Shown here piece by piece: positions 623 to 22,249 of a stretch of 38,429 nucleotides of DNA. Numbering within the stretch: the first letter of the stretch is position 1; each line of letters opens with the position of its first letter. A program made the translations under genes and the position numbers. Source of the DNA: a virus; IMG/VR virus record IMGVR_UViG_3300017779_000035, positions 1 through 38,429 of that record; one strand, given 5' to 3'. The notes beneath the pieces are model-generated. The model worked only from the letters and a program-made list of their open reading frames with translations. It was not told where the DNA came from and did not search any database.

Positions 623-804
623 CTCTTGAAGCATTGTTCTTAGTTATCCTTACAGCTTGCCTTGTCCCGTGGATGGCTTGGATCTCCACCGTGTTAATTA
701 AAATTGAGATACGTTTAGCTAAAGGTGATGAAGCTTTAGAGACTGCTGAGGAACGTTTAGCTGACCATGAACAAAGGCTTCGAGCTTTAGAATCTAGACA
801 ATAA
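619..804 (+). CDS. Small membrane protein with coiled-coil tail
   Basis: This 61-residue protein has one hydrophobic N-terminal helix (about residues 4-24), followed by a charged heptad-like helix rich in Glu/Leu/Arg ending ALESRQ, which should form a coiled coil. The GTG start at 619 overlaps the previous stop (GTGA), which indicates coupling. Such membrane-anchor-plus-coiled-coil architecture is common in lysis accessory proteins (holin partners, spanin-like) and in superinfection exclusion proteins. The 3' end overlaps the end of the leftward methyltransferase gene by 18 bases, so the early and late transcripts converge here with no room for a separate terminator. Function not established. 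Confidence 0.72.
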   Translation: MTLEALFLVILTACLVPWMAWISTVLIKIEIRLAKGDEALETAEERLADHEQRLRALESRQ

Positions 805-1797
805 CGTTGATATAGCTACGGCCGCCTGCTGAGGAATTACTCCATTACCAAGCATTTTAAGACAAGCCGTACGACTAATACCTAATTCTTCTCCGCACAC
901 CCAACCAGGTGGAAGCCCCATCATCCACTCAACAAACCAATGATTCAATCGAAAATCGTTGCTTGGTTGTGGAGATCGTCTTCCAATGATTTGTTCCCAG
1001 TGTTTGATTGCTTGTTCGTATTTGCTAAACGATCCAGAAATACTACGTCGTTCAGGGTAGTCCCCAGCATCCCAGTTGACCCCGGCTTTCTCCCATCTCC
1101 TGTCGCCATACCCGAAGTCAAACTCCTGCCCTGTTCTACAGTTGGAGTTGGCAACAAATCCTGAGCTTTGTTCCGAAGATCCTCGTAACTGTGTATCTCG
1201 TCTAGTCGTAAAGCTATCACGTTTAACGGCTGACTGTTCCTGGTCCACTGAGATTCCCCTGCCGTGTTTTCGCCATCCTGAACTGTTGGTGTTGGTAGCA
1301 ATGCAGAACCATCTGTCTCGTTTGTGGGGCGCTCCAATGTCTGACGCTCGAAGAGTCCCCCATTCCCATCTGCTGAAACCGTTGTATGCCATTGCTGCAC
1401 AGACCCTGGCAATAGCGTCCCCACTGTTAGCGGTAAGTATTCCTCTAACGTTTTCGAGGATGAGCCATTTTGCTTCCGTAATCCGGGCAATTCGGCAAAC
1501 ATCGTCAATGATCCATCTTTCATCGTTTACTCCTTTACGATTTCCAGCCACTGAGAATGGCTGGCAGGGAAACCCTGCTGTAATAATGTCAACTGGTTCA
1601 ATGCTTTCTGTAAACAAAACTTCATCTTCAACTCCTATTTTAGTTAGGTCACCGTGGTTAGGCACACCATAGCGGTGCTGTAGTAATCGGCTTGCGTTGG
1701 GTTCTATTTCAGACACCCAAGCTAACTCAGTTTTAACGATTTTAGATAAACCTAGTTCTATGCCTCCGTAGCCAGCGCATAAAGCACCTACTTTCAT
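787..1797 (-). CDS. dcm: C5-cytosine DNA methyltransferase
   Basis: This 336-residue protein transfers a methyl group from S-adenosylmethionine to carbon 5 of cytosine in DNA. All core motifs are visible: motif I GALCAGYGGIELGL (residues 4-17, SAM binding), motif IV GFPCQPFS with catalytic Cys78, motif VI ENVRG (115-119), motif VIII KRDRWF (159-164), a variable target-recognition region (about 170-280), and motif X GNGVIPQQAA near the end. I start it at the ATG at 1797, which forms an ATGA overlap with the upstream stop and puts motif I at the very N-terminus as usual; the frame is open a little further upstream, inside the neighbour. No cognate restriction enzyme is adjacent, so it probably protects phage DNA from host restriction. 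The target sequence cannot be read from the protein. Confidence 0.95.
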   Translation of the reverse strand: MKVGALCAGYGGIELGLSKIVKTELAWVSEIEPNASRLLQHRYGVPNHGDLTKIGVEDEVLFTESIEPVDIITAGFPCQPFSVAGNRKGVNDERWIIDDVCRIARITEAKWLILENVRGILTANSGDAIARVCAAMAYNGFSRWEWGTLRASDIGAPHKRDRWFCIATNTNSSGWRKHGRGISVDQEQSAVKRDSFTTRRDTQLRGSSEQSSGFVANSNCRTGQEFDFGYGDRRWEKAGVNWDAGDYPERRSISGSFSKYEQAIKHWEQIIGRRSPQPSNDFRLNHWFVEWMMGLPPGWVCGEELGISRTACLKMLGNGVIPQQAAVAISTLLSRF

Positions 1798-2375
1798 GAG
1801 CAAACCCAGTGTTGCCAGCCACCGCCTGTAGCCCTGTAAATAAGCCAAGCAGAAACCCTGATATTATCTTGCCCATTATAGATGTCCCCTACATACCCTA
1901 AAGCAGTACGACTTCTAGCATCCCAATACGTTCTCAAATGCTGCATCAAACCACTAGCAGTGCTAACACTTGATCGTGCTTGAGGATCGCCCCCACTCTC
2001 GCAAGAAATAATTGAGAGGAACCTGGCAGTATCACGCAAGTCTCCACCCATTTCAACAATGGCAGATTCCACAGTGGATCTCCATTGTTCTACGGCTGGT
2101 GAGAACTGTGCATCAGGGGAAACGGTTGAGTAAAGACGCACAGGTATACTTCGTTCCATAGCCCATTGTCGATGCCACTTGTGAGTGTTACGACCATATA
2201 TGCCGTCTTGGTCAATGCCCATCCACCATTGCAACCATTTGACTCTAGGGCTTTCTTCCATCCATTCGTATTCTGTTGACAATGTTGTTTCTTCTAACAG
2301 ATCCCATTGTATGTAGGGTTCCGCAGGTGTCACTGTTAGCGAACACATATATATAAAACAACCGACTATCCCCAT
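1794..2375 (-). CDS. Lytic transglycosylase-like protein, probably exported
   Basis: This 193-residue protein probably cleaves peptidoglycan glycan strands. The C-terminal half carries a lysozyme/SLT-like signature: ISCESGGDP with putative catalytic Glu126, then a Ser/Ala/Ser-Gly-Leu-Met-Gln turn (139-145) and a closing GWQHWVC that matches actinobacterial transglycosylase-like domains. Residues 47-70 (GIDQDGIYGRNT) resemble a fragment of a PG_binding_1 repeat. The N-terminus is hydrophobic (about residues 1-17) but lacks the usual basic residues, so it is a weak signal peptide or anchor. The gene is coupled inside the DNA-modification run: it overlaps its upstream neighbour by 10 bases and the downstream methyltransferase by 4. 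A wall hydrolase here, away from the lysis cassette at 30398..31434, is unexpected. Family assignment is by motif only. Confidence 0.7.
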   Translation of the reverse strand: MGIVGCFIYMCSLTVTPAEPYIQWDLLEETTLSTEYEWMEESPRVKWLQWWMGIDQDGIYGRNTHKWHRQWAMERSIPVRLYSTVSPDAQFSPAVEQWRSTVESAIVEMGGDLRDTARFLSIISCESGGDPQARSSVSTASGLMQHLRTYWDARSRTALGYVGDIYNGQDNIRVSAWLIYRATGGGWQHWVCS

Positions 2376-2956
2376 TGGTCCGCCATTGCATCAGCCCAAC
2401 CCTGAAAAAACTTGGCACGATTCTTTTGCCGGTCAAGGCCGCCCTTGTTGAACCAGTTACCAGGAATCTTTGTGCTTTGAGCCTTATCGACAACGTTAGT
2501 TGGCTCTAACGCAGGTAAGTTCTTTAACCACAACCTAGTTGCTTTGGTAAATGGATGACCGTACTGCCATGGTTGAATTGTTTGAGTGTGCGGAGGCATT
2601 TCATACACCAAACTAGATATTGGATTCTCAACACAAACTTTCGGGATGTGTGAAACTTCCCATAGTTTCATAAAGAACGCCTTGCCTTCCATACCTTTCT
2701 CATATCGTTCCATGTTTATGCCTTTGTCTTTACCGCCGGGGTACAAGAATCTTGCGCCAGCGTTTGATAGGTAAGTGCATGGTGGGTGTGCGATCATCAT
2801 GTCCCAGTCATCATATAAGATGTCAAAGATGTCGCCTTCGTAATGTGGTCCATCTATTTCTGTTGGGATAATGTCGCAAGAGATAGCGTCATGACCTTTC
2901 TTTCTGAAAGCTTCTCGAACTGTTCCTGAGTACTCACAAGCCACTAATACTTTCAT
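2366..2956 (-). CDS. C5-methyltransferase-like SAM protein (phage type)
   Basis: This 196-residue protein is shorter than a standard C5-cytosine methyltransferase but has the same opening and core: MKVLVACEYSGTVREAF (SAM-binding motif I), AHPPCTYLSNAG with a Pro-Pro-Cys60 in the motif IV position, and VENPISS (109-115) in place of the ENV motif. There is no obvious target-recognition domain and no motif X. Such proteins are common in phages and are usually annotated as DNA cytosine methyltransferases, with little biochemical proof. I use the ATG at 2956, which makes an ATGA overlap with the nuclease gene upstream. It may methylate DNA with relaxed specificity or act on another pyrimidine substrate; the sequence alone does not decide. 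Confidence 0.75.
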   Translation of the reverse strand: MKVLVACEYSGTVREAFRKKGHDAISCDIIPTEIDGPHYEGDIFDILYDDWDMMIAHPPCTYLSNAGARFLYPGGKDKGINMERYEKGMEGKAFFMKLWEVSHIPKVCVENPISSLVYEMPPHTQTIQPWQYGHPFTKATRLWLKNLPALEPTNVVDKAQSTKIPGNWFNKGGLDRQKNRAKFFQGWADAMADQWG

Positions 2957-3315
2957 AGGTAAGTGTCCTTTTCTTGCCAGTGCCTCCATAACAATAATAG
3001 TTCAGCAGCAAACTCCGCATCCATAACAGCTACTTTACCTACTTGTTTCCCGGATACGCTTCTTCGATCTCCGTGTATGGCGAAGATAACCCATTCGTCA
3101 TTGTCGGATACGTTGCGTATCTTTGAGATCCATTTGAACAGTGACCATGCTTTTCGGTACTTGACTTCCACAGTTACGCCTGTGTCCCCCAACCAGATAT
3201 CATGCGATTCTGTGGAAGCCGAAGTACGCTTTACGTCGTTGTGTCCATGCTTGATGAGCATGTCACGGATTTCGTTCTCGCCTATCGTACCCTTTTGCTT
3301 TGCTTTATTACTCAA
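2953..3315 (-). CDS. PD-(D/E)XK nuclease, Holliday-junction-resolvase-like
   Basis: This 120-residue protein has the layout of archaeal-Hjc/VRR-type nucleases: an N-terminal KQKGTIGENEI helix with the first acidic residue, then HDIW with the Asp, and VEVKYRK as the (D/E)XK half of the catalytic site. It would cut branched DNA to resolve recombination or packaging intermediates, or degrade DNA in another role. The start is a TTG at 3315 that overlaps the stop of the DpdA-like gene (TTGA), and the end overlaps the next gene by four bases. Position among SSB, annealing protein and exonuclease genes supports a recombination role. The frame also fits a small restriction-type endonuclease, so specificity is uncertain. 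Confidence 0.7.
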   Translation of the reverse strand: MSNKAKQKGTIGENEIRDMLIKHGHNDVKRTSASTESHDIWLGDTGVTVEVKYRKAWSLFKWISKIRNVSDNDEWVIFAIHGDRRSVSGKQVGKVAVMDAEFAAELLLLWRHWQEKDTYL

Positions 3316-4067
3316 AATAAACTCAATTCTTCTTTATATTTTATATTAATTACACTGTTGTACCAATCAATCGCAAAGTGTTCGCAATTAGCACACGATT
3401 TCTTAGGGCAATTAGGATCAGGTTTCATACGCCCACCGTAAGACCAAGCCATTGAATCAGAAGAAGAAAGCAACGAACCAAAATTTTGAATAGCAGTTTT
3501 TTTCATACCAAAACCATGCAACCGTAAAGGCTGTAAGCTCTTGACAATCCATTCAGCTTCTTTAGTTGCTTGCCTTCGACACACACTACCTAAACCAACA
3601 ATAGATTCGCTTTCTAAATTAAACCCAGCCTGTTCGTACATTTCCCAATGCCGTAAATAATCATCACGTTCCCAACCCTGCAAAACAGGAACCCAATGGA
3701 TATCGCTAGACAATGTTCTTAAATTAGCCAACGATTTAATTGACAACTCTTGATGTTCAGTCACAGTCTTGCCAGTTTTTTCCAGTATCCAAGGTTCACA
3801 CATCCAATCTTGAGGACTAGCCCATTGGAAACCATAAATGTTGTCCATGTATCTACGAACTCTTGCTGCGTACCGATGTGGTGTAGTTTTCCATTCTCCA
3901 TACGTTGAAAGTTCTGTAAACCCACCTGAGTCGCAAGCCCATTCAGTAATTGACTCCGGCAAATTTTTGTATTTACGCAGAGTCCTATCGCTTACAAACA
4001 AAGGTATGTCTTTAAACTGAGAGTAACGCAACCAATATGGTCTATGTGTCCCAAGATAAAATTTCAT
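3312..4067 (-). CDS. dpdA: DpdA-like 7-deazaguanine DNA transglycosylase
   Basis: This 251-residue protein matches the phage branch of tRNA-guanine-transglycosylase-like enzymes that swap guanine in DNA for a 7-deazaguanine such as preQ0. Landmarks are GTHRPYWL near the start, ACDSGGFTEL with Asp46 in the place of the TGT DSGGF active site, SPQDWMCEP (84-92), VPVLQGW (126-132), GLGSVCRRQ (158-166), LHGFG (183-187), and SSDSMAWSY (202-210). A cysteine cluster Cys220/Cys225/Cys228 with His230 probably binds zinc. This pattern is that of the DpdA2 type known from actinophages. It is co-transcribed with SSB and recombination genes and two methyltransferase-like genes, suggesting anti-restriction DNA modification. 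No folE, queD, queE or queC gene is visible, so the base must come from the host. Confidence 0.85.
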   Translation of the reverse strand: MKFYLGTHRPYWLRYSQFKDIPLFVSDRTLRKYKNLPESITEWACDSGGFTELSTYGEWKTTPHRYAARVRRYMDNIYGFQWASPQDWMCEPWILEKTGKTVTEHQELSIKSLANLRTLSSDIHWVPVLQGWERDDYLRHWEMYEQAGFNLESESIVGLGSVCRRQATKEAEWIVKSLQPLRLHGFGMKKTAIQNFGSLLSSSDSMAWSYGGRMKPDPNCPKKSCANCEHFAIDWYNSVINIKYKEELSLF

Positions 4068-4073
4068 TGTGTT

Positions 4074-4235
4074 CTATTCTCGGATGCCTCTGGCGAAGGC
4101 AGCAGGATACCTATCAACCATCTCTCGAATCATCCCAGACCTAGACTTACCAGCCTCCAAAGCCGTTACATCTATCTTGTACACCAGTTCTTTAGGTAGG
4201 CGCACACTAACCATTACTTCTTTCTTATCCGTCAT
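4074..4235 (-). CDS. Ribbon-helix-helix DNA-binding protein
   Basis: This 53-residue protein is a compact CopG/Arc-type ribbon-helix-helix domain: a beta strand VMVSVRLP (7-14), helix KELVYKIDVTALEAG, the turn KSRSGMI and a second helix REMVDRY. Such proteins dimerise and bind operator DNA through the paired strands. It starts at 4235, overlapping the zinc-ribbon gene by 11 bases, and ends 6 bases before the DpdA-like start. It may regulate the early operon, perhaps through the 28-bp repeats at 7675 and 9456, but nothing here links protein and site directly. Confidence 0.85.
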   Translation of the reverse strand: MTDKKEVMVSVRLPKELVYKIDVTALEAGKSRSGMIREMVDRYPAAFARGIRE

Positions 4236-4380
4236 CTTTCATCTTTCCATTACAGTTAGGGCAACGACCCCTTGACCTAACCAACACAACCCCAATGTAG
4301 AATTTACATTTGGTGCATTGAATTAGGTAAGGGGATTTGTTGCGGAGCTTACTTTTCTTGCGATTAAAGTCGTCAAACAA
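4225..4380 (-). CDS. Small zinc-ribbon protein
   Basis: This 51-residue protein has two CxxC knuckles, CTKC (residues 22-25) and CPNC (40-43), 14 residues apart, the standard spacing of a small zinc ribbon, with a basic N-terminus. The start is a TTG at 4380 directly abutting the SSB stop codon, and the end overlaps the ribbon-helix-helix gene in another frame. Tight packing on both sides supports it being real despite its size and rare start codon. It could bind nucleic acid or act as an adaptor; no specific role can be given. Confidence 0.7.
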   Translation of the reverse strand: MFDDFNRKKSKLRNKSPYLIQCTKCKFYIGVVLVRSRGRCPNCNGKMKDDG

Positions 4381-4791
4381 TTAAAACCAGTCTTCACCTG
4401 GCTGTACTGGTTTGCCGTCTATTATCGCCGTTGCCCCCTGATATGGATCTTTCTTCATCGAAGGTCTAATGACCTTAGCAATATTCCATACAGAACAGTT
4501 CCACCCTTTCTTGGATGTGCCGTCTTTAGCTGTGTAATCTCTTGCCTTGAATCTTCCTTGCACCATGACTCTGCTACCTTTGCTGGTTTCGTCAATGATG
4601 GCATCGAAGTGATCTGTTTTGCCTTCTCTGTCCTCCCACACCGTGATGTCAACGAATGTCGTTTCCGAATCCTTGGTGGGTTGGTAGGCTAACGCATTTT
4701 CTATTACTTGTTTGCCGGTTGATTCAATAGTCTTGGTAGACCATTCACGACAAAGGTTGCCGTGTAAATATATTGTTTCTTCATTTAGCAT
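4381..4791 (-). CDS. ssb: Single-stranded DNA-binding protein
   Basis: This 136-residue protein has an OB-fold SSB pattern: an early beta strand with LHGNL, the central FVDITVWED strand, and KGSRVMVQGRFKARDYTAKDG, a close match to the SSB family. The C-terminus is acidic and ends EDWF, comparable to the acidic Asp/Pro-Phe tip that recruits partner proteins in bacterial SSBs. It would coat single-stranded phage DNA during replication and recombination. It follows the 111-aa gene with a single base between stop and start. It is short relative to host SSBs, as usual for phages. Confidence 0.92.
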   Translation of the reverse strand: MLNEETIYLHGNLCREWSTKTIESTGKQVIENALAYQPTKDSETTFVDITVWEDREGKTDHFDAIIDETSKGSRVMVQGRFKARDYTAKDGTSKKGWNCSVWNIAKVIRPSMKKDPYQGATAIIDGKPVQPGEDWF

Positions 4792-4792
4792 G

Positions 4793-5128
4793 TTACTGCT
4801 CCTTTACTTTTTGTTGTTCTTCTATTTCTTCTAACCAATCTTCACCTACAAGGCTGTAATAATTCATCAAGCCCATAATCCAATCTTTTAAAATGTCAAG
4901 TCGCATAAGCGTAGGCAAACTAAGAAACTTGGTGGTTGGAACAAAGTATGCTTTTCCGCTGTCGGTATAAGCTACAAATAAACCTTCAGTGTCTAGCGTT
5001 TCTTCACGCCTTCTCCTTAAGAATTCCTTACCTTTATCTGTTAATTGTAGTTTGTCTGGGAAATTGGACAAGAAAACTTCTTTGAAGCTATCAAAGTCGT
5101 AGTATTCTTCTTCTTCATTCAGACTCAT
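4793..5128 (-). CDS. Hypothetical acidic early protein
   Basis: This 111-residue protein is not recognised. It starts with an acidic stretch (NEEEEYYDFD), has a Lys/Arg-rich middle (KGKEFLRRRREE) and ends in a Glu/Lys-rich helix that may be coiled coil. No cysteine or metal motif is visible. The start at 5128 overlaps the end of the annealing-protein gene by 14 bases, and the stop lies one base before the ssb start. Its place between the annealing protein and SSB suggests a helper in recombination or replication, but only by position. Confidence 0.75.
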   Translation of the reverse strand: MSLNEEEEYYDFDSFKEVFLSNFPDKLQLTDKGKEFLRRRREETLDTEGLFVAYTDSGKAYFVPTTKFLSLPTLMRLDILKDWIMGLMNYYSLVGEDWLEEIEEQQKVKEQ

Positions 5129-5537
5129 CTTGTGAATCTCCTTCCTTTTTATCTAACGCTTTATCAAGAACATAAGACTCTTGACACCAAAGCTCCAATG
5201 CCACACCAACACGCATGGCACACCTTTTCAACCCATCAGAAACACTGTTCTTCAAATTCAAACCTTCATTCTTGCCGGGTCGTTCAACTTCACCTGCTTC
5301 TTGGATCACTACTTCTTTGCCATCAATGACAAACGTGCATTCCAAAACGCAGCCATGCACAACGCCCTCAGCGTTACGAATAACATCAATTATTCGCTGG
5401 CTGAAAGGACCATGCTTCGATAATAGTATTTGCGTTACGTCGCCATGCCCCACATATTCTGCTTTGTAGGATAAACCGGGTTTCTGATGAATGTACGCAG
5501 GCGGTACACGCTTTGCTAGGTCTTGTAACATACTCAT
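5115..5537 (-). CDS. Probable Rad52-like single-strand annealing protein
   Basis: This 140-residue protein has features of the Rad52/Erf-like annealing superfamily: a central beta-hairpin region (VHGCVLECTFVIDGKEVVIQ), then EAGEVERPGKNEGLNLKNSVSDGLKRCAMRVGVAL, where the helix with SDxLKRxAxxxG resembles the Rad52 signature. Such proteins pair complementary single strands during recombination-driven replication. It lies next to a Cas4/RecB-like exonuclease and SSB, the classic exonuclease plus annealing pair. It overlaps the exonuclease gene by 4 bases (ATGA); ATG codons at 5537 and 5531 could both initiate. No identity to a characterised member is claimed. Confidence 0.6.
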   Translation of the reverse strand: MSMLQDLAKRVPPAYIHQKPGLSYKAEYVGHGDVTQILLSKHGPFSQRIIDVIRNAEGVVHGCVLECTFVIDGKEVVIQEAGEVERPGKNEGLNLKNSVSDGLKRCAMRVGVALELWCQESYVLDKALDKKEGDSQDESE

Positions 5538-6388
5538 ACTGTTTCCTCCTCAGTTAACCAACCAGCATGAACCTTAGCCGTCTGCAACGACACCTCAGTA
5601 GGACCACACGCCTCACAGATACTCTGGTATCTGCAATAGCGACAGTTCCAAGGCTGTCCTTTACCAGCACCATACGCAGGTGGCTTTTCCACAAGCATAT
5701 CCACACCGTTGTCATCGAATACAACAGCGTCAGGTAGCATTTCTTCTGACAATGATTGTTGTACGCTACGGAAGTTGTCTAGTTCTTGTTCTGCTATTTG
5801 TCGTGGTGTAAACCCATCAAACAGTTCTTCGTCTAACTCAATGACAAACTCAAGCATGTCCCCAGCTTTATGCGCTCCACGAAAACCCGACTCTTTCGCT
5901 AAATACACCATCCATAAATGCGTAACTTCTGGTGTTCCCATAGCGTACAAAGCTGCTTGTGCAACGTGTTGTCGTTTAGGTATTCCAGTTTCTTTAGCGA
6001 TCTTAAATGGGTAGCTTCCCATTGTTTTGATCTCAAGCAACCTGGTTTGCCCATCGACTTCAACTACTCCGTCTGATGAACCGCTGAGGCTGACACCCAA
6101 AGGCGACAAATCTACCACTTTTTCGTACTCGCCGCCATACACATGCCCTATCGCATTTTGGAGCAATTCGTGCATGCTTGTTCCCAGTGAGAAACTGATT
6201 AATGTGCTTGTATCAAAGCTATGAGCCTCCGGGAACTTAGCAGCAGCAAAGCCACGCTGACGCAAACAGTTCAACGCATCTGAACAACGCATCAAAGTGC
6301 CAGCAGCAGTAGGCTTCGCACCATTCTCCTCATTATCATCAGCCAAAAACCGCTCAAACGATTCCCTAGCCGTATTACTATATTGCAT
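5534..6388 (-). CDS. Cas4/RecB-like exonuclease (PD-(D/E)XK)
   Basis: This 284-residue protein has a RecB-family nuclease core: MHELLQ with His73, LSGSSDGVVE with Asp106, LLEIKT with Glu119 and Lys121, and QAALYA around residues 144-149 (motif QxxxY). Near the C-terminus is a Cys249-x2-Cys252-x5-Cys258 cluster followed by Cys261, and cysteines 35/41 lie near the N-terminus. Together these match the 4Fe-4S arrangement of Cas4/AddB-type nucleases. It would resect DNA ends to produce single strands for the neighbouring annealing protein. No CRISPR array or other cas gene is present, so this is a recombination rather than adaptation gene. It overlaps genes on both sides (11 and 4 bases). Confidence 0.85.
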   Translation of the reverse strand: MQYSNTARESFERFLADDNEENGAKPTAAGTLMRCSDALNCLRQRGFAAAKFPEAHSFDTSTLISFSLGTSMHELLQNAIGHVYGGEYEKVVDLSPLGVSLSGSSDGVVEVDGQTRLLEIKTMGSYPFKIAKETGIPKRQHVAQAALYAMGTPEVTHLWMVYLAKESGFRGAHKAGDMLEFVIELDEELFDGFTPRQIAEQELDNFRSVQQSLSEEMLPDAVVFDDNGVDMLVEKPPAYGAGKGQPWNCRYCRYQSICEACGPTEVSLQTAKVHAGWLTEEETV

Positions 6389-6821
6389 ATTCTTCCCCTA
6401 ATCTATAAAAGGCAACCTTACGCTTGCCACCACTCGGATAATCCATCTTCCGATCTACCTTCACACCAAACTCCTCACTGAGCTGACGCACTCGACGTTG
6501 CCAATCACCCTCACCCAAGTTCTCCCTGAAATCAGTAGCAGAACACCAGCCATCATTCAACGTGTACCCAGAACGGTGACTACGCTTTAACGCCATGTGT
6601 AGCTCCCAACGAAGAAAGTCATACACACGCTTACAATTATTACTAGCATCTTTCAGCTCTTTCGCTGCTTCTTTTTCTAAACCTGGCTGGTCACCTGATC
6701 TAGCTTTTATTTGGTTACGGAAAGGTCGATGGCAGGTAGGACATTTCCCACCTGCCACCTTGGTAACCGCATCAAAGCGATCAATGACCATTTGCATCCC
6801 AGTGCTATATGGATTCTGCAT
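6378..6821 (-). CDS. Hypothetical protein with CPTC zinc knuckle
   Basis: This 147-residue protein is not recognised. It has one CPTC knuckle followed by HRPFRNQIKAR near residues 25-40, a helical middle (KEAAKELKDASNNCKRVYDFL), and a C-terminal part that looks like a small winged-helix or basic DNA-binding region (DWQRRVRQLSEEFG, then KRKVAFYRL). Of the possible starts I favour the ATG at 6821, which has a GGAG six bases upstream; an ATG at 6827 and a longer frame to 6848 also exist. It sits directly upstream of the exonuclease gene with an 11-base overlap. A DNA-binding role is a guess from composition. Confidence 0.72.
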   Translation of the reverse strand: MQNPYSTGMQMVIDRFDAVTKVAGGKCPTCHRPFRNQIKARSGDQPGLEKEAAKELKDASNNCKRVYDFLRWELHMALKRSHRSGYTLNDGWCSATDFRENLGEGDWQRRVRQLSEEFGVKVDRKMDYPSGGKRKVAFYRLGEEYAI

Positions 6822-7319: not shown

Positions 7320-7541
7320 CTATTGCATGATTCTACGACGATACCGGAAACGCTCCGACGCAGTCATACCAGCACGAACCCCATAAATCGGAAAATCAAT
7401 ATTCTCCTCAACAATAGAGGCCGCCAAACATTCCCTTTCGACACGACAATGTTGACACACACGACGAGCTTTCTTATGCTGATCAGAATACATCAACCTG
7501 GTCAAACCACGACAATTTGCTAATTCACGCCAAGCACCCAT
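7320..7541 (-). CDS. whiB: WhiB-family Fe-S transcriptional regulator
   Basis: This 73-residue protein carries the four invariant WhiB cysteines: Cys10, then Cys29-x2-Cys32-x5-Cys38, which hold a redox-sensitive 4Fe-4S cluster. The turn IYGVRAGMT (residues 53-61) replaces the usual GVWGG, followed by SERFRYRRR, the basic DNA-contacting tail. WhiB proteins bind the host primary sigma factor and steer transcription; phage members can mimic or block host WhiB regulators. No ribosome site precedes the ATG, but a TAGTGT hexamer sits exactly six bases upstream, consistent with leaderless expression. It heads the leftward early operon. This gene is the main evidence for an actinobacterial host. Confidence 0.93.
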   Translation of the reverse strand: MGAWRELANCRGLTRLMYSDQHKKARRVCQHCRVERECLAASIVEENIDFPIYGVRAGMTASERFRYRRRIMQ

Positions 7542-9697: not shown

Positions 9698-9853
9698 ATG
9701 ACCATTAATTATCGTCAATATCGTGACAGTTCAAACGAACTATCCGACTATGTGACGGCACTAGAAAATGAAATGCAAAGACATTTAGGAGAGTTACATT
9801 TCCTGGCATTCTTTGAAGCTTTCCAAGATGACAATTCAAGGAGGGTTAATTAA
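9698..9853 (+). CDS. Small helical protein, first gene of GP88 cassette
   Basis: This 51-residue protein (MTINYRQYRDSSNELSDYVT...) is acidic, mostly helical and has no recognised domain. An ideal AAGGAGG ribosome site lies 6 bases before the ATG. Its TAA overlaps the ATG of the next gene (TAATG), and its last codons contain the AAGGAGG site of that gene, so the two are coupled. Function unknown; a partner or regulator of the GP88-like protein is plausible. Confidence 0.75.
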   Translation: MTINYRQYRDSSNELSDYVTALENEMQRHLGELHFLAFFEAFQDDNSRRVN

Positions 9854-10797
9854 TGACTAGTGTCAGTATTAAAAAGCGTGCCGGTACTTTGCCGGACTTG
9901 TCGCCTAATTTTATTTGGACAGCTCGCAAGAGATCCGAAGATTTGAAAACAGTCGGTGCTATCCGTTCGGCTTTTTATGGGCTATCTAATAGACCGGCTC
10001 CGTTGCTAACTTTGGACACTACGAAAATTAAAAAGGGTGACGGGTTAAAGATTGTTAATTTGTCTTTGGCTCCTCATTCAATGAGCGGTTTTAATGTTTG
10101 CCCATCATCAACTAAAGAGTGTCGGGAAAATTGTATTGGACATAGTGCCGGTTTAAATAAATTTGAGACACAGCAAACCGCTAAGCTGTGGAGGACTCAA
10201 TTATTGTTTACCGACTTTGATTGTTTTATGCGTTTGCTACTTGCGGAACTTAACGCAGTGGTTCGGAATAATGGACCTATAGCTTTTAGGGCGAATACTT
10301 ACTCAGACTGCGATTGGTCCCGATATGAAGACTTGATTCGTGAGGCGATTGGTCCGCAATCAATACGTTTTGAGTACAGCAAAAGAAAAGCCTTTGTTTC
10401 TGGCAATCGCTCTGTAAGCCATTCTCCCGAAAAAAATGACTTTCACCCTAGTAATAGTCCATGGAAAAACGCTGTTTTTTATGCTTTTTCTGGTCGTGGA
10501 CCTAAGTTTGATTCACCAGAGTTTTTAAATTCTGTAATTGAACGGGGACATAATTGCGCCTTGGTCGTGGATCAGCTCCCGACTACGAAAACGCTATGGG
10601 GTAAGCCTTGGATATCCGGAGACGCTAACGATAGGAACGTTTATCTAGTTGATGGTCATTATTTGTTACTAACGCCTAAGGGTACTTTGTCGGATAGTTC
10701 AAACTTTGTCTACCCTACTCGTAATGTTGATAGTGATTCTCTTCGGCGGCTAAGGCATCAAAAAAAAATTTCTGGGATAGTGAATAATGAAAACTGA
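9853..10797 (+). CDS. GP88-like cysteine-cluster phage protein
   Basis: This 314-residue protein matches the phage GP88-type family of unknown function. Landmarks are KIVNLSLAPHSMSGFNVCP, a cysteine cluster Cys83-x6-Cys90-x3-Cys94, FRANTYSDCDW (an Arg-x-Asn-x-x-Ser-Asp motif), a later FEYSKR and YAFSG segment, and a C-terminal LVDGHYLLLTPKG. The cysteines suggest a bound metal or Fe-S cluster, but the spacing is not that of radical-SAM enzymes. It is the main gene of a cassette with its own promoter and terminator, standing apart from both the early and late operons and followed by two tiny membrane proteins. No enzymatic activity is established for the family. Confidence 0.75.
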   Translation: MTSVSIKKRAGTLPDLSPNFIWTARKRSEDLKTVGAIRSAFYGLSNRPAPLLTLDTTKIKKGDGLKIVNLSLAPHSMSGFNVCPSSTKECRENCIGHSAGLNKFETQQTAKLWRTQLLFTDFDCFMRLLLAELNAVVRNNGPIAFRANTYSDCDWSRYEDLIREAIGPQSIRFEYSKRKAFVSGNRSVSHSPEKNDFHPSNSPWKNAVFYAFSGRGPKFDSPEFLNSVIERGHNCALVVDQLPTTKTLWGKPWISGDANDRNVYLVDGHYLLLTPKGTLSDSSNFVYPTRNVDSDSLRRLRHQKKISGIVNNEN

Positions 10798-16107: not shown

Positions 16108-16484
16108 TGCCACGAAAAGGTATGGGACAAAAAGTGCAGACCGCTACTGATCAAGAGTATGGTCAAGCAAAAATGCAGGAAGAGGCGCAAGAAACTATTC
16201 CTTTGCCTGAGTTACAGCAGATGCCGTCAATGCGACCAGGTGAAACTGCTTTTAATCGACCTACTGAAAGACCGATAGAGCCTATTGATACACCTGGCAA
16301 TTTGGGGGACATGCAATCCCCTGAAGATTTAAGGCAACGTAAATTAAAAGTCCTTAACTTTATTCCGATGATGGAACAGATGTCTTCGCAACCATACGCA
16401 AATCCTAAATTTCGTAATGCAGTACGGCAAATGAAAGCGTTTGTTGGCGACATGGAAGAGTTGTACCAAGACGAGGAACAGTAA
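16107..16484 (+). CDS. Hypothetical virion-associated protein
   Basis: This 125-residue protein is Gln/Glu/Pro-rich at the N-terminus, with a low-complexity segment FNRPTERPIEPIDTPGNL, and has a helical C-terminal half (RQRKLKVLNFIPMMEQMSS... RNAVRQMKAFVGDMEELYQDEEQ). It is coupled to the portal (TAATG) and to the 1,921-residue gene (TAATG). Location suggests a head-tail or internal virion component or assembly helper. No family recognised. Confidence 0.75.
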   Translation: MPRKGMGQKVQTATDQEYGQAKMQEEAQETIPLPELQQMPSMRPGETAFNRPTERPIEPIDTPGNLGDMQSPEDLRQRKLKVLNFIPMMEQMSSQPYANPKFRNAVRQMKAFVGDMEELYQDEEQ

Positions 16485-19400
16485 TGAATCTCTTTAAAAT
16501 GGCTGAAGGCGTTGTTAAAGGCGTTTTTGACATTGGTTTTGGAGCAGGCGAGTTTGTTGTCGATACTGTTAAAGCAGGAACGCAACTGTTAACTGACGGA
16601 CCCGACGTAGCCGCTCAAACTTTTATTTCATCAATACAAGAAGATCTTTTAGGAAGAAGCCTACAAGGAGCTTTTGGACCGCAAGGTGTCATAGGTTCTG
16701 TTATTGGTGAATTACCTGAATTTATTCGTGAACCAGGTCGTGCTGTTCTCCAACCAACGTTTAAAGCTTGGGATTGGACTATACAAAACGTTGTTGACAG
16801 ACCTTTAGGAACATTTGCGACAATGATAAATGTCGGGTTCAAAGACGGTTTAAGAACTGTTTTTGATGGCTCAACGTGGGCTGCTGCTTGGGAAATAAAC
16901 GATAAACGAACGTTTGGTCAATCTGTTGCTGCGTTAGTAAATTTTATTGACCCATTCGATGACGACGAATACGACGATATACAAGATGATCCGTTGTTTA
17001 ATTTGCTGTCAGGAACAGTTGACTTTTTCCAAGAGTTTTTAGATCCTGTTGGCATTGGTTTAGGTGGCAGCGTCAATCTTCTTAGAGGAAGAACAGTTAT
17101 TGGAAAATTTGATGAGGCTGGCAATTTCAAAGGCGTTGGTCGGGAAGCTTACGATAAAGTAGGTGGACTTATACAGCCTGAAAAAGTGTACACTCCTGGT
17201 GGCGGTATTTTCCGACGAGGTTTGCGAATGGATGATCGTTTAACTGACGCTCAGAAAAACGCTCGTAACATGGTTGCTAAACGGTTTGTGACGCAAAGAG
17301 CTGAAAGGGTTATTGAAAGTAAACGTTGGAAATCGCTTGAAAAAGAATGGGAAACGTTAGAAAATGTTTTTATATCTGAAAATCCTGCGTATGGGTACGC
17401 TCAAGGCATAAACAAAATATTAGACCCGGAAGCGTCACAAAAATTAATTAATCAGCGTTACGCTGTGTTGCGTAATATGGCTGGGACTCGTGGTATGAAA
17501 CTTAGCGACAAAGCAGCGTATGCTATCGCTAAGGGACCATCGAAAGAAGCTCGTCGTATGACGGCTAGGTACATGATGGGTGATATGAGTGTTCTTGCTG
17601 AGGCTGGGGATGCAGCTAGGAAAGCTAGGCAAGTGTTAGATGAGACTGACATTTTTGACAAAATTGATGAGTTTGAAGGTCTTAGTAAACAATACGAAGA
17701 AATGATGGCTTCTACAGAAGGTTACTTTAATCCTCGTCAAGCTAAAAAACGTATTAATGATTTAGGTTCAGAAATAGCTGAAACTACTAAAATTTTAAAC
17801 AACGTTGATTGGGAAACCATGTTTGACGGGTACATGGGATTTATGGAATCCAGGGGTCGTCAAATGGTAGACATTAACGGTAACCCAACAACGCAATGGA
17901 CAGATTTACTTAATTCAAATCCTGACATAAAAGCGTTGCAACGAATCACTCTTGAAAAAATAGTTGCGTTAGATTCTTTGTCTCCTCAACAATTAGCGAG
18001 GATACAAGCTGGTAAAGGCGCTGGAGAGTTTACAAAAATTTGGTCTGATCCGTTTGGTGTGCATTACGCAAAACGCACAAGAGCAATGCAAGCTAGAGAA
18101 GCAGCAACTGGCGTTAAGAAAGAGTTTTTTGAAGAAACGTATCAAGTGCCGTCAGTAATTACTCCGTTAGGTGTCCGTAAATTTAGGATGTCTACGCAAA
18201 GGTTGCCTCAGTCGTTAATTAATTTTGCTTCTGACACATCGACAATTATGTGGGAAAGAATGCTGGCTCAAGCAACAACTGTGCGTATTGGTGGCAAAAG
18301 AATTATAGGCGTTGAAGAAGTAAATGATTTGTTGGGTGAGTGGGAAAAGATATCAAGAATGCCTGTTGACTCAGCAGCTCAACGAAAGAATTTGTATACA
18401 ACTACTGTTGATCGTTTGATTAAAACAGCGGATGAGTTGTTGGCAGAAGATGGGATAATAATGGAAGGCGGTACTTTAGCTGAACAATTATTGACTGCCA
18501 GGACTATTAAAGATGAAGCAATTCTGCATCCTAGTAAAAGAGCAGCTACTGATCGTAAGTCTCGAAGGGCTACGTCAACAAGTGAGGAAAGAGGAACATA
18601 TCAATTTACAGACGCAGAAACAAAAGAAGTTACTACTATAACGTTGCCTATGACTCCTAGCGCTATGAAAGCAGCGGAAATTTTGCCACGTTGGGATTTG
18701 ATAAATATTCAATTGGGTCGTTTGTCTAGAAGAGCAAGTCGTGAGGGCGGTACGGTAACAAAGCGAGTGTTGCAAGGCACTGAAGATGGCTTTCGTTTAG
18801 TTGCTGGCAAAGGCGGTTCTGCTGCTACGAAAGTTATGAAGGTTTGGCGACCTATGGTGTTGTTGACACCTAAATGGCCGCTAAGAGTCCAGTTAGATGA
18901 AACAATGCGTCGTGCTGCTGATTTGGGTGTCATAACTGAAATTAGAAACTTTGCTAAAGGCTTTAACGATATGCGTGACGCTCAAGTCACTTACGGTGTA
19001 AACATGAAACTTGAAGATGTTTCGGCAAGCATTATTAGAGAAGCTAAAGAAAAAGCAGGTTTAGCTGATGATGCTGCTGACCCTAATTTAGGTGACGCAT
19101 TACGAACGTTAGAAAAAGACGGCATCGTTATTGAAAACGTTATTCAAAGACACGCAGATTCTGTTTTGGAAGATGTTCGCAAGTCATATAACTTTGTTCC
19201 TGGTCCGTTAAAGGGAACAGACGTTGGAAGTAAAGTCGGTAGGATACCTTCGTATTTCTTATCGAAAGGTTCATTAGCACGATTTGGAATGGGCAGTTTG
19301 TTAATAGGTATGCCTGCCGGGTTAGCTTTAGCTGGTGCTTATGGTGCTAGACGGTTTATGCGAATTAGAAATGTGGCGCAAAAAAAAGCAGCAGCGTCAG

Positions 19401-22249
19401 TAGCTGATTCGTTAGTAGAGGAATCTAGAAAACTATTTAAAGAAGCGTTAGGAGAAGACGCTCCTGTTGGCATGAAACAACAAGCTGACATGATGAAGTC
19501 CAGGGGTGAAGCTATCCGTGACGCTGTGTACGCTGTTGAAGACGATGTGTATGCGACGCTTCCTGACGGCGGTAATTTAGATGACATTGTTGACAACATT
19601 GAAAAAGCGCATGCGTTGCTAGAAAAAATAGGTTTAGCTAACCAAACAATTTACGGTGCTACAATTCGTAACGCTTACGGGGACAACAATGATTTTAGAG
19701 AAATAATTTCTAGCGAAGTTTCTTCTGTGAAATCAGTGTCCAGTATTTTGCGAGGTGTTCGTGAAGGGCAAGAAAGAAACTTGTTGCGTTATGTTGACGC
19801 TGACTATGAACGCTGGGATTTCCTAGTCGATGACAGGACAGCGTTTACAACAGGCTTTAACGACACTATGAACCGTTACTCAGATTTTGGAGGAACATAT
19901 AAAGAGTTTTTTCAAACTGTTTTTGATGACACGCTTGAATTTACAGATCAAGTTATTGCTGTAGAAAAGCTTATTAAATCTAACACTGATCTTCGGTATA
20001 GGCTTGGCGCTGACAATTTGCTAGATCAACCACAAGCGTTAAATAAGTATGCTGAAGACATAGTTGACGAATACTACGACCTTTTACCACCAGAAGAATT
20101 TGCAGATTTGCGTGTCAAAATGGTAAATGGTGAAGCTGTTGTTTGGGCAGACGTAGAAAAAGCATTGTTAAAAAATGAAAAACGTAGAGCTAAAGAAGCA
20201 AACCGAGAAGCAAGGACTAATGTTAAAGAACTTGTAGGTGAAGTTCGTGAAAGTCATCCAAGTTTTGCACGTTCAATAGCAGCAAACGAAAGAACAGTTG
20301 ATTTAGGCAGAGATGTATACACAGGCGCTATTGGCAAAATGGTCAACGACGTATACAGGACTCTCGGTCAAATGCCAGCAGATCACTTATCTAGAAACCC
20401 GTATTTTAAAACTAAATATGATCGAGAAGTCGCTCGCAGGTTAGCGTTGTTTACTGATGAAAGCGGAATGGTAAATCTTAACCAAAACGCTTTAAACGCT
20501 ATTGAAGAAGAAGCAAGACAGTTTGCTTTACGAGAAACAAGAGATTTGTTATATGACTTAGCTGAAGAAACAAGAATAGCTGAAATATTTGGTCACGTTA
20601 TGCCGTTCTTTAACGCTTGGCAAGAAGTGTTAGGAAGATGGGCAAAGCTATCAGTGCAGAATCCTTACTTTGTTGCCAAAGCAGCGAAACTGTATACCGC
20701 TGAATGGGATGCAGAGTTTTTAGGAATTAACGAAGTGCATCAATACAATGAAGCTGGAATAGCAAACAAAGAAACTGAATTAGGTCGCCCACTAACTAAA
20801 GAAGAATTAAAAGAATTTGAAGTAGCAAAGTACCTTGTTTGGAGATTACCTGAACCAGTCAAAGGCGCATTATCGACAACCTTGACACCTGGTCCTCTTG
20901 CTGAAATCTTACGAGAACAAGACATACGGTTCAGTAAAGAAGGTTTAGCTTCAATGCTGCAATCAACAACACCAGGGTTTGGTCCTTTAGTAAGTATCCC
21001 TGTTAACGAAGCGTTGTTAAAAGATCCTTCTTTAGAAAGCACTGTAAAGTTTATGTTCCCGTTTGGACCTCCTGAAGGCGGTTTTACAAACAGGTTGATA
21101 CAAAGTTATTTACCTGCTTGGCAACAGAACGTTGTTAACCGATTTATGGACACGCCAACAAAAGAACGCATGGTCCAATATTTTTCTCAACAATTGTATG
21201 TGCAAGCAGCCGAAAATGGTATGCCTGTTGATTTGGCAGACGAAGCTGATGTGGCTAGATGGATAAAGCAAGCCGAAGACCGGGCAGAGTCGTTTTTCTT
21301 GTTTAGAGCAGCGCAGGGTTTGTTTGTGCCTACGTCAACAACAGCAATTTCGCCTTATGCAGAAGTAATGCTTGAGTACAAAAAGTTAGAACTTAAACAC
21401 GGTTCTAAAATAGCGGATTCAATGTTTTTGGAAAGATACGGTGAAGACTTGTTTGGGTTAACTGCTCGAATGACGAAACTAAACGATGGTGTTGCTGCGT
21501 CTGTAGAATCTGAAGAAGCATTTATGGCGAATCAAGAGCTAGTGCAACAGTTCCCAGAGTTGGGTGCTTGGATAACTGGAAGCATCGGTCCTGCTGATGA
21601 AAAGTTTGCGTTTAGTCAAGCGGTTTATCGTCGGCAAACACAAATGGATGTTAGCGAGTTAACTCCTGGTTTGAAACGTCGTGAACGTTTCTCTCCGTTA
21701 GAGACTATGGCTGCTACCGATATTAAACTTGGGTGGATGAAATACACTAAATTAAACGACAATATTAGGTCGTATCAGGCTGAACGAGAAAGCCTTGGTT
21801 TAGCGTATAGTTTGAATAGTCAACCTATGGCAGCGACTGCTGTTATGAAAGCTAAAGCTATTGATCGTATTAAAGCGGAGCATCCTGCTTGGGGCGCTGA
21901 GTTTGTTTCTGGGCAGAAAGAAGATCGGATGCTTAAGGTTGTTGAAGGCTTTATGCACATTTTCAATAATCAAGATATGTATTCTGGTTTGATGGCGAAG
22001 CCATCGACTGAATTGATTTTGCATTATTTTAAAATCCGTGGCGCTGTTGAACAAGAATTGGTTCGTAGGTTTACTGAGTTAAATGGTAGCTTGAGTCTAG
22101 ATGCTAATGGCAATTCTGATCTAAAGTTGTTGTGGGAGAACCAAAAAGAATTTATGGGGCAGATGCCAGGGTTTAGTGAAATTTATGACAGGTTTTTTGA
22201 GAACGATTCAATTCCAAGAGGAAGTTTTGTTTCTTTAGCAAGGGTTTAA
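16484..22249 (+). CDS. Giant internal virion (ejection) protein
   Basis: At 1,921 residues this is the largest gene, 15% of the genome. It is largely helical and charged, without signal peptide. The N-terminus contains repeated hydrophobic/glycine segments (FDIGFGAGEFVVDTV) and FIDPFDDDEYDDIQDD; a possible membrane helix rich in Gly/Ala/Leu lies around residues 930-955 (GMGSLLIGMPAGLALAGAYG). The last third has aromatic/Pro-rich conserved-looking blocks (LSTTLTPGPLAEIL, STTPGFGPLVSIPVNEALL, MFPFGPPEGGFTNRL). With no tape measure in the genome, and this position after the portal, the best interpretation is a large protein packed in the capsid and ejected into the host, like the large internal proteins of T7 and N4. 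An enzymatic domain could be hidden but I see no catalytic motif. Confidence 0.8.
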   Translation: MNLFKMAEGVVKGVFDIGFGAGEFVVDTVKAGTQLLTDGPDVAAQTFISSIQEDLLGRSLQGAFGPQGVIGSVIGELPEFIREPGRAVLQPTFKAWDWTIQNVVDRPLGTFATMINVGFKDGLRTVFDGSTWAAAWEINDKRTFGQSVAALVNFIDPFDDDEYDDIQDDPLFNLLSGTVDFFQEFLDPVGIGLGGSVNLLRGRTVIGKFDEAGNFKGVGREAYDKVGGLIQPEKVYTPGGGIFRRGLRMDDRLTDAQKNARNMVAKRFVTQRAERVIESKRWKSLEKEWETLENVFISENPAYGYAQGINKILDPEASQKLINQRYAVLRNMAGTRGMKLSDKAAYAIAKGPSKEARRMTARYMMGDMSVLAEAGDAARKARQVLDETDIFDKIDEFEGLSKQYEEMMASTEGYFNPRQAKKRINDLGSEIAETTKILNNVDWETMFDGYMGFMESRGRQMVDINGNPTTQWTDLLNSNPDIKALQRITLEKIVALDSLSPQQLARIQAGKGAGEFTKIWSDPFGVHYAKRTRAMQAREAATGVKKEFFEETYQVPSVITPLGVRKFRMSTQRLPQSLINFASDTSTIMWERMLAQATTVRIGGKRIIGVEEVNDLLGEWEKISRMPVDSAAQRKNLYTTTVDRLIKTADELLAEDGIIMEGGTLAEQLLTARTIKDEAILHPSKRAATDRKSRRATSTSEERGTYQFTDAETKEVTTITLPMTPSAMKAAEILPRWDLINIQLGRLSRRASREGGTVTKRVLQGTEDGFRLVAGKGGSAATKVMKVWRPMVLLTPKWPLRVQLDETMRRAADLGVITEIRNFAKGFNDMRDAQVTYGVNMKLEDVSASIIREAKEKAGLADDAADPNLGDALRTLEKDGIVIENVIQRHADSVLEDVRKSYNFVPGPLKGTDVGSKVGRIPSYFLSKGSLARFGMGSLLIGMPAGLALAGAYGARRFMRIRNVAQKKAAASVADSLVEESRKLFKEALGEDAPVGMKQQADMMKSRGEAIRDAVYAVEDDVYATLPDGGNLDDIVDNIEKAHALLEKIGLANQTIYGATIRNAYGDNNDFREIISSEVSSVKSVSSILRGVREGQERNLLRYVDADYERWDFLVDDRTAFTTGFNDTMNRYSDFGGTYKEFFQTVFDDTLEFTDQVIAVEKLIKSNTDLRYRLGADNLLDQPQALNKYAEDIVDEYYDLLPPEEFADLRVKMVNGEAVVWADVEKALLKNEKRRAKEANREARTNVKELVGEVRESHPSFARSIAANERTVDLGRDVYTGAIGKMVNDVYRTLGQMPADHLSRNPYFKTKYDREVARRLALFTDESGMVNLNQNALNAIEEEARQFALRETRDLLYDLAEETRIAEIFGHVMPFFNAWQEVLGRWAKLSVQNPYFVAKAAKLYTAEWDAEFLGINEVHQYNEAGIANKETELGRPLTKEELKEFEVAKYLVWRLPEPVKGALSTTLTPGPLAEILREQDIRFSKEGLASMLQSTTPGFGPLVSIPVNEALLKDPSLESTVKFMFPFGPPEGGFTNRLIQSYLPAWQQNVVNRFMDTPTKERMVQYFSQQLYVQAAENGMPVDLADEADVARWIKQAEDRAESFFLFRAAQGLFVPTSTTAISPYAEVMLEYKKLELKHGSKIADSMFLERYGEDLFGLTARMTKLNDGVAASVESEEAFMANQELVQQFPELGAWITGSIGPADEKFAFSQAVYRRQTQMDVSELTPGLKRRERFSPLETMAATDIKLGWMKYTKLNDNIRSYQAERESLGLAYSLNSQPMAATAVMKAKAIDRIKAEHPAWGAEFVSGQKEDRMLKVVEGFMHIFNNQDMYSGLMAKPSTELILHYFKIRGAVEQELVRRFTELNGSLSLDANGNSDLKLLWENQKEFMGQMPGFSEIYDRFFENDSIPRGSFVSLARV

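Follow-up and report, generated by a model that had tools for sequence, protein, structure and literature searches.

The window (the whole 38,429-bp IMG/VR record analyzed here) carries a DpdA homologue that, on sequence evidence, falls into the orphan (Orion-type) family, which is distributed over phages and integrative elements of actinobacteria, and two genes of the C5-cytosine methyltransferase type lie in the same gene run. We consider it fairly probable that this orphan DpdA exchanges guanine for a 7-deazaguanine and, together with the C5 genes, forms a loose anti-restriction cassette.

The record is flanked by an exact 123-bp direct terminal repeat, and thus the genome is probably complete; the presence of a WhiB-family regulator makes an actinobacterial host likely (Table 1). 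The early, or replication, side of the genome consists of minus-strand genes (9387 down to 787), and the structural genes occupy the plus strand. The plus strand also encodes, at 9853–10797, a protein of the Gene product 88 family (PF17338) that has cysteine-rich motifs and, at 16484–22249, a 1921-aa protein matching PHROG 10618 in its last third. No Rfam matches were found.

The run containing the DpdA and C5 genes is co-directional, with 4-nt start/stop overlaps at 3312–3315 (TTGA), 2953–2956 (ATGA), and 1794–1797 (ATGA), and the DpdA start lies six bases past the ribbon-helix-helix gene. These overlaps and the common direction agree with the original prediction of a single translationally coupled run, which, however, missed the SLT lytic transglycosylase gene separating the two C5 genes. 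The ribbon-helix-helix protein in the run was predicted correctly. Less certain are the proposed zinc ribbon, which has CxxC pairs and a weak match not reaching the curated cut-off, and the proposed PD-(D/E)XK protein, where the PHROG match is accompanied by a PDDEXK_15 match (E = 0.04) under the Pfam cut-off.

Table 1. Features of the minus-strand gene run and the evidence for their assignment.
Coordinates	Strand	Predicted product	Evidence
787–1797	−	C5-cytosine DNA methyltransferase	PF00145, 2e-40; TIGR00675, 2e-33; GFPCQPFS, ENV, KRDR
1794–2375	−	SLT transglycosylase domain protein (lysis-type)	PF01464, 8e-5 (above cut-off)
2366–2956	−	Short C5-MTase-fold protein	PHROG 757, 9e-54
2953–3315	−	Small PD-(D/E)XK-like protein, resolvase-like	PHROG 244 "RusA-like resolvase," 1.1e-10
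3312–4067	−	Orphan-type DpdA (PF23859), 251 aa, DNA-guanine transglycosylase-like	PF23859, 1.1e-70
4074–4235	−	Ribbon-helix-helix (CopG-like) protein	PF01402, 2.6e-7
4225–4380	−	Putative zinc-ribbon protein	CxxC pairs; Pfam matches all sub-threshold
4381–6388	−	SSB, small ORF, single-strand annealing protein, Cas4-like exonuclease (upstream in the DpdA run)	PF00436, 5.8e-10; PF12705, 1.2e-6; PHROG 3290, 2e-10; PHROG 1706, 1e-22
7320–7541	−	WhiB-family regulator	PF02467, 1.8e-10

The presence of a DpdA homologue, as originally predicted, is strongly supported: the PF23859 match scores 238 bits against a gathering cut-off of 27 and covers residues 2–240, and PHROG 1279 is matched at 1.7e-78. Structure prediction agrees with this assignment. 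The AlphaFold2 model (pLDDT 94.4, pTM 0.90) has a TGT-type barrel, as Foldseek retrieves from the PDB both 7UI4 and TGT structures at E ≤ 1e-3, the best match being the DNA preQ0 insertase DpdA 7UI4 (E = 2e-5), followed by the Z. mobilis TGT. The barrel fold is thus common to these proteins, whereas the window DpdA is considerably shorter (251 aa vs. 413 aa in 7UI4, 14% identity, and 360 aa in the Z. mobilis TGT, 13% identity); a PDB search with the DpdA sequence gave no match.

In the alignment with 36 relatives, residues D46 (of DSGGF), D87, Q130, H184, and D204 are invariant, and the motifs DSGGF, QDWMCEP, QGW, VGxGS, HGFG, and SDSxAW are invariant or nearly so. Judging from the motif order and from what is known of TGT, D46, D87, Q130, and D204 presumably correspond to TGT residues D102, D156, Q203, and D280, respectively. 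A candidate for the zinc site of the superfamily (three Cys and a His) is CPKKSCANC (residues 220–228) with its three cysteines, which some relatives lack. The fold and the active-site motifs, along with the QueE-QueD-QueC genes adjoining a related DpdA (locus L019, see below), make a DNA-guanine transglycosylase reaction plausible for this enzyme.

The original prediction assigned the protein to the DpdA2 type, which is defined by the loss of His196 of the 9g enzyme (Hutinet et al., 2019; PMC6884629). In our alignment, His196 corresponds to the histidine of HGFG, that is, H184, present in the window DpdA and in 36 out of 36 relatives. Moreover, the profile of PF23859-type DpdA aligns with the 9g DpdA (hhalign, E = 5.7e-6), while the DpdA2 of nt-1 gives no alignment with the window DpdA (E = 0.26). 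Hence, the protein should be reassigned from DpdA2 to the orphan type; the nt-1 enzyme, devoid of the diagnostic histidine (PMC6884629), resembles it in role by name only. The 9g DpdA has the same motifs, including His196/HGFG and CDSxxW, but it does not match PF23859, and phage 9g, unlike the window, has its own FolE, QueD, QueE-type, and QueC genes. The closest named homologues, 43–47% identical, come from mycobacteriophages of clusters B1 and K and Streptomyces phage Gilgamesh. Seven phages with proven deazaguanine DNA or closely related to such phages (9g, CAjan, nt-1, Salmonella 7-11, HVTV-1, Dp-1, and the Rosebush-like Ares) were searched, and PF23859 was found in none of them; five (9g, CAjan, nt-1, Dp-1, and Ares) have QueC. 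In these searches, Pops (B1) stood in for Orion, and Ares (B2) for Rosebush; Orion itself presumably belongs to the orphan family, since its cluster B1 relatives carry PF23859.

To our knowledge, the orphan branch has never been shown to modify DNA. Phage Orion, which has DpdA only and is the one presumed member of the family with LC-MS data in the literature, contains no 7-deazaguanine in its virion DNA, and its host cannot make preQ0 (PMC6884629). DpdA-only phages are the most numerous class in that 2019 survey, which left their modification status open. As the Orion host makes no preQ0, the unmodified phage DNA is no proof of an inactive enzyme. Still, the premise that DpdA enzymes are established to insert 7-deazaguanines does not hold for the orphan branch, given the Orion data and the frequent lack of QueC and Tgt in the carriers. 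Similar to the Orion-type (group 3) singleton, or orphan, DpdA phages (PMC6884629), the window has DpdA without preQ0 genes; it differs from them in being another type of phage and in having C5-type genes in the DpdA run.

The absence of preQ0 genes, noted originally, was confirmed: the FolE, QueD, QueE, and QueC families are missing from the Pfam matches of the 44 main ORFs (17 families found), QueC was not found in any of the six frames of the whole record, and FolE was not found in the record by tblastn. The proposed supply of preQ0 by the host follows from this absence, and QueC, present in 60 out of 296 sampled Actinomycetota, makes a host source possible; against it, among 49 searched genomes carrying PF23859, 29 have no strong QueC (20 have one) and 46 have no full-length Tgt match (three have one). 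The QueC frequencies in carriers and in the sample (20/49 vs. 60/296) are compared here regardless of kinship and genome size. In three genomes (G086, G083, and G069, harboring loci L131, L126, and L099, respectively), QueC is located within about 5 kb of a weak TGT-family match, and these pairs are possibly bacterial dpd islands co-resident with an orphan DpdA element.

The shortage of QueC and Tgt among the carriers and the unmodified DNA of Orion would also be expected if the orphan DpdA did not insert 7-deazaguanine into DNA at all, but acted with another base, on tRNA, or by releasing guanine as an anti-host step. About 18 loci have a PAPS-reductase-like PP-loop gene in the vicinity of DpdA, and in several it occupies the position of QueC in L019; this points in the same direction. 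We regard such a role as distinctly improbable, since the motif set agrees with that of TGT and DpdA, L019 couples the PF23859 family to QueE-QueD-QueC, and preQ0 or queuine could be salvaged from outside.

The census of the PF23859 family yielded 41 viral loci and 215 genomic matches; 80 of the latter were retained, nearly all of them actinobacterial. Many genomic copies reside within integrated elements with tyrosine integrases, and this distribution over phages and integrase-bearing elements fits an anti-restriction role. Only one of the 41 viral relatives, many of which are fragmentary contigs, has QueC on the same contig. In this relative, L019 (IMGVR_UViG_3300025296_002372, positions 3244–6798), a C5 methyltransferase gene, a small ORF, and the genes for QueE, QueD, QueC, and DpdA overlap on one strand, the Que proteins having NCBIfam matches (1.6e-31, 9.7e-19, and 4.5e-35, respectively) that are all below NCBI's equivalog cut-offs. 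In a quick tree, the L019 DpdA falls within the main PF23859 clade, its position there being unresolved. This combination of an orphan-family DpdA with QueE, QueD, and QueC makes a preQ0-type substrate plausible for the branch.

In six loci (L099, L104, L124, L127, L128, and L134, in the region of approximately 4–6 kb), the PAPS-reductase-like PP-loop ATPase gene is located between the genes for the C5 methyltransferase and DpdA, thus taking the place that QueC has in L019. One may speculate that the large orphan DpdA branch, the C5 methyltransferase, and a PP-loop ATPase form a modular cassette inserting an undescribed guanine replacement whose synthesis or salvage would bypass the queuosine pathway; this joint reading, including its proposal that the ATPase would be QueC in L019 and the PAPS-reductase-like protein elsewhere, seems quite unlikely to us.

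As for the C5 genes of the window, both predictions agree with our data. The full-length enzyme has motifs I, IV (PCQ), VI (ENV), VIII, and X, and is canonical; its longest ORF starts from TTG at 1848 (787–1848), ATG at 1797 being the likelier start. The short protein (196 aa) has neither a target-recognition domain nor a Pfam match, and yet the catalytic PPC(T) and EN/ENP are invariant in the alignment of 40 homologues, and its AlphaFold2 model (pLDDT 88) has a C5-MTase fold with DNMT3A and DNMT3B as the top PDB matches in Foldseek. The same fold is found in the cytosine carboxymethyltransferase CmoX (PMC12783734), from which the window case differs in having no CmoA among its Pfam matches; the full-length enzyme has PCQ and the short one PPC. 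For want of a CmoA match, cytosine carboxymethylation was rejected as a candidate.

A C5 methyltransferase gene occurs within 6 kb of DpdA in 21 out of 125 loci, within 3 kb in 19 of them (tblastn; a raw count over the DpdA loci alone), and these loci are spread over separate branches of the quick tree. In all 21 loci the gene is on the DpdA strand; we consider this weak evidence, as such elements are mostly co-directional, the tyrosine integrase being on the DpdA strand in 36 out of 37. Along with the start/stop overlaps in the window and the C5 gene directly upstream of QueE-QueD-QueC-DpdA in L019, these neighborhoods could suggest a coupled module in which DpdA and the C5 enzymes would equip the genome with modified cytosine as well as 7-deazaguanine and so block many types of restriction. 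However, the nearest phage relative, G388 (terminase 65% and capsid protein 58% identical), has both C5 genes, while DpdA was not found there. Conversely, no C5 gene was found in the available sequence of L002 and L003, which have the nearest DpdA relatives (62 and 61% identity, respectively), located beside a DPPY amino-methyltransferase in L002 and abutting the terminase gene in L003. Hence, the window set is not a conserved unit but is built from separately moving parts, which weakens the notion of a coupled DNA-modification operon.

The proposed simultaneous resistance to many restriction types is not supported by the genome composition. In positions 1–38306 of the window, CGCG is absent (66 expected), GGCC occurs six times (62 expected), and 6-bp palindromes, 299 times (493 expected). 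The avoidance is as strong in DpdA-less relatives (one GGCC with 55 expected in G388; no CGCG with 45 expected in G386), while 9g and CAjan, proven deazaguanine phages, do not avoid CGCG and GGCC to such a degree. These data speak against the lineage having a densely modified, protected genome, or at any rate having had one for long, and are compatible with sparse or recent modification. Taking all this into account, a coupled module modifying both bases is unlikely. The similarity to DpdA-less relatives in site avoidance and the absence of DpdA from G388 would also conform to dpdA being a recent or non-functional passenger that leaves the virion DNA unaffected. We find this highly improbable, as the ORF is intact, all conserved residues are retained, and the gene overlaps its neighbor in the run.

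Thus, we favor the loose anti-restriction cassette. A complete, probably actinobacterial phage would carry an orphan-family DpdA within its recombination and replication genes, the two adjacent C5 genes having presumably been acquired independently. DpdA would replace guanine in DNA by a preQ0-type 7-deazaguanine taken from the host or the medium, at a limited or conditional level, and the C5 enzyme would methylate cytosine at its own site, so that one transcription unit would serve as a loose cassette rather than as a dedicated two-base pathway. This explanation is based on the PF23859 match and the fold, the motifs conserved in 36 relatives, the alignment with the 9g enzyme, the L019 gene run, the C5 neighbors on separate branches, the integrase-bearing elements, and the frequency of QueC in Actinomycetota; counted against it are the unmodified Orion DNA, the absence of PF23859 from the seven deazaguanine-type phages, the carriers without QueC or Tgt, the palindrome avoidance, and the separation of the modules in relatives.

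For the phage itself the finding is modest, being a known type of gene in a new context, with the genome evidence speaking against broad restriction resistance. For the family, the census demonstrates a wide distribution of orphan DpdA among the mobile elements of actinobacteria, often in hosts lacking preQ0 synthesis, and L019, combining an orphan-family DpdA with QueE-QueD-QueC and a C5 methyltransferase, offers a concrete test of which base this branch inserts.
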